Shown piece by piece: positions 5,003 to 7,536 of a stretch of DNA of 41,134 nucleotides; position 1 is the first letter of the stretch, and each line of letters opens with the position of its first letter. Below the pieces are notes generated by a model, which was not told the DNA's origin, searched no databases, and saw only the letters and a list, made by a program, of their open reading frames with translations. Both the position numbers and the translations under genes were made by a program. Source of the DNA: Candidatus Bathyarchaeota archaeon (GTDB taxonomy: Archaea > Thermoproteota > Bathyarchaeia > Bathyarchaeales > UBA233); NCBI GenBank assembly GCA_007050895.1, contig SMYP01000064.1:1-41134 (forward strand), in the 5' to 3' direction.

Positions 5003-5320
5003 ATCCCTTATTGCACTAAGTGTGGTGCTCTTTTGAAAGAAGATGACAAGTTCTGTCCTGTTTGCGGCGCGTCAGCAGCCAAAGTCACCCGAGAAGAATA
5101 TACTGTTTCATCAAGCAACCTCATTGACCGCATAGGCGAAATCCTCCATGAAGGAAACGTTATAAGAATAATCGTGAAGGACGAGAAAGGAAAACAACTG
5201 CTTGAAATTCCAGCTACCGTAGGGGTAATAGGCGTTGTCATAGCTCCTTGGTTGGCAGCCCTAGGCGTAATAGCCGCATTGGTTGCCAACTGCACAATAA
5301 TAGTAGAGAGAAGAGAGTAG
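5003..5320 (+). CDS. Zinc-ribbon DUF4342-like membrane-associated protein, probable AUC start
   Basis: This small protein has an N-terminal zinc ribbon with two knuckles (YCTKCG and FCPVCG) followed by a DUF4342-like segment: LIDRIGEILHEGNVIRIIVKDE, then a hydrophobic stretch TVGVIGVVIAPWLAALGVIAALVA and a charged tail. Function is unknown for the family. The first CxxC lies upstream of the only canonical start in frame (TTG 5033), so the true start is probably ATC 5003, 6 nt after GAGGTGA; ATT 4997 is the other option. It ends 3 nt from the convergent membrane-protein gene. A TATA-like AATATTTTTAAG lies around 4953-4964. Confidence 0.75.
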   Translation: MPYCTKCGALLKEDDKFCPVCGASAAKVTREEYTVSSSNLIDRIGEILHEGNVIRIIVKDEKGKQLLEIPATVGVIGVVIAPWLAALGVIAALVANCTIIVERRE

Positions 5321-5612: not shown

Positions 5613-5690
5613 CTTGACGTAACTTATTAGTTTTTTATGGTGCTGTGGAGCAGCCGTTTCTAATAAGACAACTAATATCATTATGTCAAG
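5613..5690. repeat. Two-tier inverted repeat between minus-strand genes
   Basis: The outer arms CTTGACGTAA (5613-5622) and TTATGTCAAG (5681-5690) pair at 9 of 10 positions. The inner arms CTTATTAG (5623-5630) and CTAATAAG (5660-5667) pair perfectly. A smaller GCTG/CAGC pair lies in the loop. It covers the stop codon of the TyrRS-like gene and the leader of the small membrane protein gene, so it could be a 3' structure or an operator. Confidence 0.5.
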
Positions 5691-7122
5691 CAATGCTTCG
5701 AAAGAAGCGACGCTCTTCAGTAAGGGATAGACGGATACGAATTGTGTTTTTGTTTCCATATATAATGTACTTGTGAAGTTTTCGTCCTTCAGGAATCCTA
5801 TCTACCAAACCACATTTCACAAGCGTCTCCAAGTTTCTCCAAAGTCCTTTTTTAGCTCCTTTTTTCAACCCCATTTTCTCAAACAGTTCATTAACAGTCA
5901 TTGGTGAACCATGTTTTTGGTAATGCTTCGCAAGTTCACTTAGAATCTGTCTATTCCGCTCAGAACCTAAAGCATCCAGAGTTTTCTCAGTTAATTCTTC
6001 TGGAACAAACAAGCTTTCATGAGTGCCAAGAATTGTTTCCATAGATTGGTAATACGGCTTTATGAACTCCCAATAACACTTCAGAACGAGGCGCTTCAGC
6101 TCCCGGGATGCCAATTCATTTTCCATGTATTTATTTCCAGTGAATTTATTCCAAATCGCTTCGCAATCTTTCATTTGGGACGCTTTAACAAACGGGTGAA
6201 TTATATTTCGCAAAAGATAATCAAGAAATTTCATGGAAACATTTTCCCGCTCATAGATCTTTCGGCTGATGTCACTGTAAGAGTCGCTTATGAACAAGGT
6301 TTCATCTGGATTCAGATCCCTTGAGTGTAAGTACCTCATTAGGCTCCCCGACACGGCAACAGGGTCAGGTAAAACAATGGTTGCTGGATATTCAATGCCT
6401 TGATCTTCACAGATCATTCTTTTAAGAACTGAGAGCCCCGCATTTGACTTGTCAAAAATATTATATGAAGCTCCCAAATACCCTAGGGACTCCAAACCCC
6501 AGCTCACGTAAGGGTATTTTTTGATTTCTGTTGCCAGCTTATTTCTCTCGAAGAGGTAAATGCTGAGAAGCTCTTTCTCGTAACGTGTGAGCGGGTACGT
6601 TTTTTCTTTGAACCGAACAGCTTTTGTTTCAAGAAGCTTCTCTGGCGTGTTAATTTGCCCAAGAATTGCTTGCAGGCTTTTCTCAAATTCGAGTATTCTC
6701 AATATGCTGTAGACATCTCTTTGAATTTCAATCCTATCTTCAACAATTACTACCCGTGCACTTGGAGTAAATATTCCTTGAAAGAAGTTATGTGCTTCTG
6801 CAACTCTTTCCCTGATATCTCCCCTGTGATAACCACGACCGATATCTCGCAGAGCTCCAATATACACAACGGGATTCACTGAATATCCGCTGCGTATCAA
6901 GTGTTCTGTGAAAAACAGTGGAAAAAAATGTTTGAGTTGTGCTACCTCCAAATCGGCGTGAAACGCAACGACGATTACAGAATTTAGTTTCCGTCTTTTC
7001 CAATGCTCACCTACGCCTTCAATAACCCGAATACTTCCCATCTCGGGAAATCTCTGTTCGAACCATTTTTGAGTCAATAATGGTAGAGGAACGGCTTCTT
7101 TTATCTTGTCTTGGTTACCCAT
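5686..7122 (-). CDS. Degenerate TyrRS-like class I synthetase fold fused to a winged helix
   Basis: This 478-residue protein resembles archaeal tyrosyl-tRNA synthetase by eye. Residues 46-150 follow the Rossmann half, including GDIRERVAEAHNFFQGIF and DRIEIQRDVYSILRILE. Residues 204-313 follow the second half, and residues 335-357 (ENELASRELKRLV...FIKPYY) match the TyrRS C-terminal helices. A helical insert sits near 155-200. The catalytic motifs are eroded: the IHLGH position reads AQLKH (61-65) and the KMSSS position reads AVSGS (256-260). A winged helix follows (about 386-455). I infer a non-synthetase, possibly a tRNA- or nucleotide-sensing regulator. The ATG is preceded by GAGGTT. The homology call is moderately sure; the function is unknown. 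Confidence 0.65.
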   Translation of the reverse strand: MGNQDKIKEAVPLPLLTQKWFEQRFPEMGSIRVIEGVGEHWKRRKLNSVIVVAFHADLEVAQLKHFFPLFFTEHLIRSGYSVNPVVYIGALRDIGRGYHRGDIRERVAEAHNFFQGIFTPSARVVIVEDRIEIQRDVYSILRILEFEKSLQAILGQINTPEKLLETKAVRFKEKTYPLTRYEKELLSIYLFERNKLATEIKKYPYVSWGLESLGYLGASYNIFDKSNAGLSVLKRMICEDQGIEYPATIVLPDPVAVSGSLMRYLHSRDLNPDETLFISDSYSDISRKIYERENVSMKFLDYLLRNIIHPFVKASQMKDCEAIWNKFTGNKYMENELASRELKRLVLKCYWEFIKPYYQSMETILGTHESLFVPEELTEKTLDALGSERNRQILSELAKHYQKHGSPMTVNELFEKMGLKKGAKKGLWRNLETLVKCGLVDRIPEGRKLHKYIIYGNKNTIRIRLSLTEERRFFRSIA

Positions 7123-7341
7123 TTTCAGAACCTCGTTTTCGATTGTTACATTTACTCCGTTTATTAGAGATTATAGTAACTATGATTGTAACTGAATCCG
7201 AATACATTAACTTTTCCTTGATTATATTTAAGTTTGAGTAATATTTAATGTGACTAAAATCAAAATGTGCTCTCTTTCTTAACCTTAAAGAATAATCCTC
7301 CCTCTCAGGTATGATATTGTGGCAAAAAAGAGGTTTATCCA

Positions 7342-7536
7342 ATGGAAGCAATAACTCACCGAGACGCGAAAGAAATCAAAAACGGAATAGTCAACATACA
7401 CAGATTACTTGAACTAAGAAAACTACATATAAGACGCATCAATGCGGGAAGTATGTGCGACTCCTGCAAGAGCTTCTGCCAAGAGCTAGGGCTGCAAAAG
7501 CAAACTAGAGACTTCATAAAAAAATACCCTATGTAA
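7342..7536 (+). CDS. Small basic protein with CxxCxxxC motif, unknown function
   Basis: A 64-residue basic, mostly helical protein with three cysteines (C39, C42, C46; MCDSCKSFC) that could bind a metal. I do not recognise the family. Support for a real gene is the GAGGT motif about 7 nt before the ATG and a hairpin just after the stop. It is divergent from the TyrRS-like gene and convergent with top6A. Confidence 0.5.
   Translation: MEAITHRDAKEIKNGIVNIHRLLELRKLHIRRINAGSMCDSCKSFCQELGLQKQTRDFIKKYPM

Follow-up and report, generated by a model that had tools for sequence, protein, structure and literature searches.

Enzymes have been turned into transcription regulators more than one way. BirA, a biotin ligase and repressor, combines a class II-type catalytic domain with an N-terminal winged helix and is catalytically active, and NadR and ThiR are regulators built on other enzyme folds. 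Enzyme folds are thus established as sensors of transcription factors, and we know of none derived from a class I aminoacyl-tRNA synthetase. Here we analyzed 41,134 nucleotides from Candidatus Bathyarchaeota archaeon (contig SMYP01000064.1, assembly GCA_007050895.1; the whole stretch is referred to as the window) that contain a gene, referred to as X, whose product is predicted to carry a core of the tyrosyl-tRNA synthetase (TyrRS) type followed by a winged helix. With a probability of roughly 0.65, we regard X as a one-component autoregulating transcription regulator in which a dead class Ic synthetase core is the sensor and the C-terminal winged helix is the output. In some Bathyarchaeia, X is likely to regulate itself and a small number of iron-sulfur redox genes by way of paired DNA sites.

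Like BirA, X joins a synthetase-like domain to a winged helix within a single chain and is predicted to act in transcription control, with candidate operators at its own promoter. It differs in its class I fold, in the C-terminal position of its winged helix and in lacking the ATP signatures, and no biotin ligase family was found among the matches of the window protein and 36 members, leaving the BirA-type class II catalytic domain without a counterpart. With NadR, ThiR and, as far as the consulted part of one review describes it, HisZ, which regulates an enzyme rather than DNA (PMC9437257), X shares the reuse of an enzyme fold for regulation, and by analogy it would work like the enzyme-derived one-component regulators BirA, NadR and ThiR. 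The TyrRS/TrpRS-like scaffold also serves outside tRNA charging in cyclodipeptide synthases such as AlbC, which, in the same part of that review, lacks the C-terminal tRNA-binding domain (PMC9437257). No X-like architecture was seen in the consulted parts of two synthetase reviews (PMC9437257, PMC7373986), and no family with this architecture was found in the family libraries or in open full-text literature covering part of the matching papers. An earlier note on this DNA, made from its letters, had likewise named no described family. The parts of X are as follows.

5686..7122, minus strand: gene X, an open reading frame (ORF) for a 478-residue protein with a TyrRS-like core and a C-terminal winged helix, defined with its homologous clusters and alignments
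6025..7089, minus strand: TyrRS-like core, residues 12-366
6928..6942, minus strand: AQLKH, residues 61-65, equivalent to the HIGH motif by hand alignment
6817..6858, minus strand: GALRDIGRGYHRGD, residues 89-102, identical in 131/131 aligned members
6310..6324, minus strand: SRDLN, residues 267-271, probable equivalent of the KMSKS motif by hand alignment
5743..6000, minus strand: predicted winged helix, about residues 375-460, from weak LexA/ArsR-type matches, predicted secondary structure (model 2) and a conservation of 0.923

The predicted structure of X matches class Ic TyrRS and TrpRS in fold and in the order of elements over residues 12-366, from the Rossmann core across the C-terminal helical domain. 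The TyrRS-like domain with a winged helix that the earlier note had read from the letters is confirmed as an observation; the note itself had proposed a structural comparison. The signatures of the synthetase family are absent. In alignments of first 36 and then 131 sequences (the second without P0001, which is 99% identical, P0014, P0040 and P0108), the HIGH position reads AQLKH in 111 of the 131 members and SQLKH in 17, as the note had it for the window protein, and neither HxGH nor TxGH occurs in any. KMS[KSAT] is likewise found in 0/131. The loss of this second motif had also been claimed correctly, but its placement at AVSGS is probably off by about ten residues; the probable equivalent is SRDLN, which is embedded in SRDLNPD in 108/131 sequences. 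PF00579, the TyrRS/TrpRS family, gave no match to the window protein at E ≤ 10 and is missing from the 17 families that were listed when 36 members were scanned. Separate PF00579 matches, two or three per genome, are present in all ten genomes checked, of which six have X and four lack it. X is predicted to share the fold of archaeal TyrRS and TrpRS, fails the sequence signatures of the family, and carries a C-terminal winged helix.

In place of the lost motifs, the region around the former active site is tightly conserved. Segments that map around the active site of TyrRS hardly vary in X: FHADL in 130/131, GALRDIGRGYHRGD in 131/131, YPYVSW in 123/131 and FDKSNAGLS in 125/131. Within residues 46-299, invariant positions make up 40 of the 57 in the pocket segments and 50 of the 197 elsewhere, a count that is partly circular because the segments were chosen once the alignment had been seen. 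The two Rossmann halves have a mean conservation of 0.906 and 0.921 and the winged helix one of 0.923, compared with 0.744 in the C-terminal helical part (residues 282-366) and 0.731 at the N-terminus. One chain would hold both a helix-turn-helix output, predicted as the winged helix, and a sensor, a role that we infer for the core from its conservation.

This pattern bears on what X may sense and on whether it is still an enzyme. If charged or uncharged tRNA docked on the TyrRS-like core and tuned DNA binding, X would couple aminoacylation to transcription, and the match to TyrRS does span the C-terminal helical domain up to residue 366. That helical part, however, is less conserved than the Rossmann halves and the winged helix, and Rfam searches of six sources returned only tRNA genes and no tRNA-like leader (two tRNAs lie in L077 and L003), so that we find tRNA sensing improbable. 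X probably responds to a small molecule, given that its pocket region is under tighter constraint than the part that reads tRNA; the region that corresponds to the anticodon reader of archaeal TyrRS belongs to the less conserved portions of X, and the sequences lean toward a small ligand over tRNA. Tyrosine itself is an unlikely ligand, because the residues that hold its hydroxyl group, Tyr32 and Asp158 in M. jannaschii TyrRS, are not kept in a hand alignment. The near-fixed pocket would also suit an X that is still an enzyme, perhaps bifunctional like BirA, activating or transferring acyl or aminoacyl groups without the usual motifs in the manner of a cyclodipeptide synthase while also binding DNA. 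We give this idea a similarly low chance: HxGH and KMS are missing in 131/131 sequences, no cyclodipeptide synthase family was matched at E ≤ 10 in the 36 members scanned, and X retains a C-terminal helical domain, which AlbC lacks (PMC9437257). AlbC also differs from X in having no winged helix. Cyclodipeptide synthases were not among the 50 structure matches listed, which excludes nothing.

The promoter of X provides the second line of evidence. We compared the 220 bases before X at 11 loci (the window, L001-L008, L010 and L052), leaving out L009, which has no upstream sequence, and the duplicates L018, L019, L050, L051 and L054. The X promoters carry two dyads of the form GTNAC-N7-GTNAC, extended to AGTNACA-N5-TGTNACT, which in the window are placed as follows.

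7175..7193, no strand: operator dyad site B, between the TATA-like box and the X start codon, one mismatch to AGTNACANNNNNTGTNACT
7221..7232, minus strand: TATA-like box of X, between both dyads, called from sequence as a conserved AT-rich block in the upstream alignment
7237..7255, no strand: operator dyad site A, just upstream of the TATA-like box and 62 bp from site B, one mismatch to AGTNACANNNNNTGTNACT

Site B is found in 11/11 loci with at most one mismatch. Site A lies beyond the TATA-like box in nine of the 11, and its distance upstream of site B is 62 bp in seven of these and 61 bp in two. Conserved dyads at its own promoter are what is expected of a one-component helix-turn-helix regulator. 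We infer that an X dimer binds each dyad through its winged helices. Because the TATA-like box is enclosed by two dyads whose spacing of about 62 bp corresponds to six helical turns, bound X would hide the start site and the side bearing the transcription factor B recognition element and TATA box, and X would most simply be a repressor; activation from site A is a possible alternative. The binding of X to DNA would change when a ligand occupies what was once the aminoacyl-adenylate pocket.

The same arrangement recurs at few other promoters. A dyad matrix built from 18 training sites without those of genome G001 was scanned over the 1,556,845 bases of the G001 chromosome. Four pairs spaced 56-68 bp stood out, with scores of the weaker site of 21.3, 16.0, 15.0 and 9.2, compared with 3.8 for the fifth. 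One is before X, one is before a NapH-like gene, and two are within a single intergenic region, where one pair precedes an operon of zinc-ribbon, ferredoxin and GltD-like genes and the other precedes a divergent gene for 119 residues. In G528, a 62-bp pair is located before the same operon. Putative targets are X itself and, in some genomes, the zinc-ribbon/ferredoxin/GltD-like operon and its divergent gene. Taken with the predicted fold and the ATP-site signatures missing in 131/131 sequences, an operator pair that is conserved at the X promoter and present at few others favors the TyrRS-derived regulator that had been proposed from the window alone. The NapH-like gene was considered as a regulon member and then downgraded: the G001 X promoter and its divergent small gene are duplicated before it (L075 7658-8038 compared with L005 upstream of 9986, 82% identity over 382 bp), and no X coding sequence follows the copy. 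Further pairs were observed elsewhere. In G527, a 62-bp pair lies between a gene for a pyridoxal phosphate-dependent enzyme and an M50 peptidase gene (L087 5377-5455), and a 61-bp pair precedes a degenerate stretch with no clean downstream gene (L088). Weak pairs in G003 (L072, L084) have a weaker site of about 6.2-6.3.

We also examined these loci in genomes with and without X, taking the best 30 loci of each kind, out of 153 genomes with a ferredoxin match and 68 with a NapH-like match. The pair is present at 2/4 ferredoxin loci from genomes with X and 0/26 from genomes without it, and at 1/8 and 0/22 NapH-like loci, respectively, two of the latter having under 600 bases upstream. In 400 kb of G529, which lacks X, we found no pair and no site scoring at least 15. 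These controls matter for the possibility that another regulator owns the operator pair and controls both X and the redox genes, in which case X would be a target and its winged helix would bind something else. Two observations would fit such a regulator: G135, in which no X was detected, has a strong 61-bp pair before an ORF for 60 residues (L239 1-100, G135:C13), and exact single dyads are found in 24/151 genomes without X (26 sites) as well as in 6/11 genomes with it (12 sites). The absence of pairs from the control loci and from G529, and the presence of site B in all 11 X promoters, speak the other way, and X may be missing from the G135 assembly because that assembly is fragmented (contig of 4,528 bases) with the pair at a contig end. 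We therefore hold another owner of the pair to be unlikely, somewhat less so than tRNA sensing or retained catalysis.

Several results, the G135 pair among them, weigh against X as an autoregulating regulator with a synthetase-derived sensor. For the core, no significant match came from Pfam, NCBIfam or the PDB sequences, nor from hhalign comparisons with the TyrRS and TrpRS of Bathyarchaeia, and residues 90-101 of the pocket loop are modelled at a predicted local distance difference test score (pLDDT) under 50. At the promoter, L007 and L008 have no clear site A, and the number of two-mismatch sites in the window (four) is reached in 6/100 shuffles. In G001, allowing spacings of 20-120 bp with both sites at least 6.5 adds one pair each at 33 and 44 bp, and the NapH-like pair lies in a stretch 82% identical to the X promoter with its divergent small gene, so that it belongs to a copy of that promoter and may be a relic. 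At the ferredoxin operon, the pair occurs at just two of the four loci with X, the other two being 49% and 64% identical and possibly paralogues. Single sites with one mismatch number 68, compared with 54 for a reversed-pattern control in 11 genomes, and single dyads were abandoned as a regulon test for this reason.

X is rare. A protein search returned 195 homologous clusters at E ≤ 0.001, with local identity of at least 74% among the 120 listed, and a profile search returned 194 matches, of which the 120 listed comprise the same group and no distant homologues. X is present in 11/162 genomes from the order of G001, 4/27 from its family and 6/201 from its class. A phylum scan of 398 genomes gave five matches at E ≤ 0.1, the sole extra one being just a 41-residue winged-helix stretch (E 0.044). 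Absences are uncertain because the completeness of the scanned genomes is not given. Titles are available for ten relatives, all of them metagenome-assembled records of Bathyarchaeota, Bathyarchaeum or miscellaneous Crenarchaeota groups. Of the 11 copies, two are broken, one by an in-frame TGA (L006 10001-11428, G002) and the other by a frame break and TAG codons (L010 9983-11370, G004), which may reflect assembly error or decay. Within clades, X diverges about as much as TyrRS, with identities of 78 and 81%, 74 and 76%, 92.5 and 93.4%, and 75 and 76% for X and TyrRS, respectively. Between clades, X is 71-77% identical, compared with 39-45% for TyrRS and 30-32% for TrpRS, where the synthetases compared may be of non-orthologous types; X may have been transferred between clades.

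Next to X lie genes for small cysteine-containing proteins, one of which shares the intergenic region with X in the window.

7342..7536, plus strand: divergent 64-residue cysteine-containing protein (MCDSCKSFC)

This protein has 45 homologous clusters and no Pfam match at E ≤ 1. A divergent small cysteine-containing ORF is found upstream of X at 8/11 loci and comes in two kinds, the first in the window, L001, L002, L003 and L006, and the second, ending WCRGIM-GC-NCGGC, in L004, L005 and L052. At L008 and L010, cysteine-containing ORFs of other kinds begin with TTG at a greater distance from X, and none was seen in L007 over its little upstream sequence. The translated frames of L004, L005 and L052 also read as decayed-looking relatives of a CPFGC...CPYCG zinc ribbon, on the opposite strand upstream of X. 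A zinc ribbon of this kind opens the ferredoxin operon in G001 and G528, and the decayed relatives thus tie the X locus to that operon independently of the operators. These neighbors suggest a redox or metal theme for the X locus. The earlier note had also suggested a comparison of genome context. The window neighbors of X, named from sequence rather than by family search as topoisomerase VI subunits, an ABCE1-like protein and an IF2-like protein, are shared only by L001 and L002 among 12 loci compared, and an operon logic for X was rejected. Also in the window, a 95-residue protein with a DUF4342 match and an N-terminal CPVC is encoded at 5033-5320 on the plus strand.

Taken at its widest, the proposal is that a class I synthetase fold became the ligand-sensing half of a transcription factor, a class I counterpart of BirA, with twin-operator autoregulation around a TATA box, control, within a limited set of Bathyarchaeia, of electron-transfer genes for iron-sulfur and small cysteine-rich proteins, and a remodelled aminoacyl-adenylate pocket that would read a metabolite signal; we consider the odds of this full picture to be even. 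The claim is directly testable in vitro, since the 19-bp dyad is defined, the promoter has a fixed twin-site layout and the targets are few. The pocket of X could show what a former amino-acid-activating site now senses, and X would offer a way into gene regulation in Bathyarchaeia, for which all the titled records in this analysis are metagenome assemblies.
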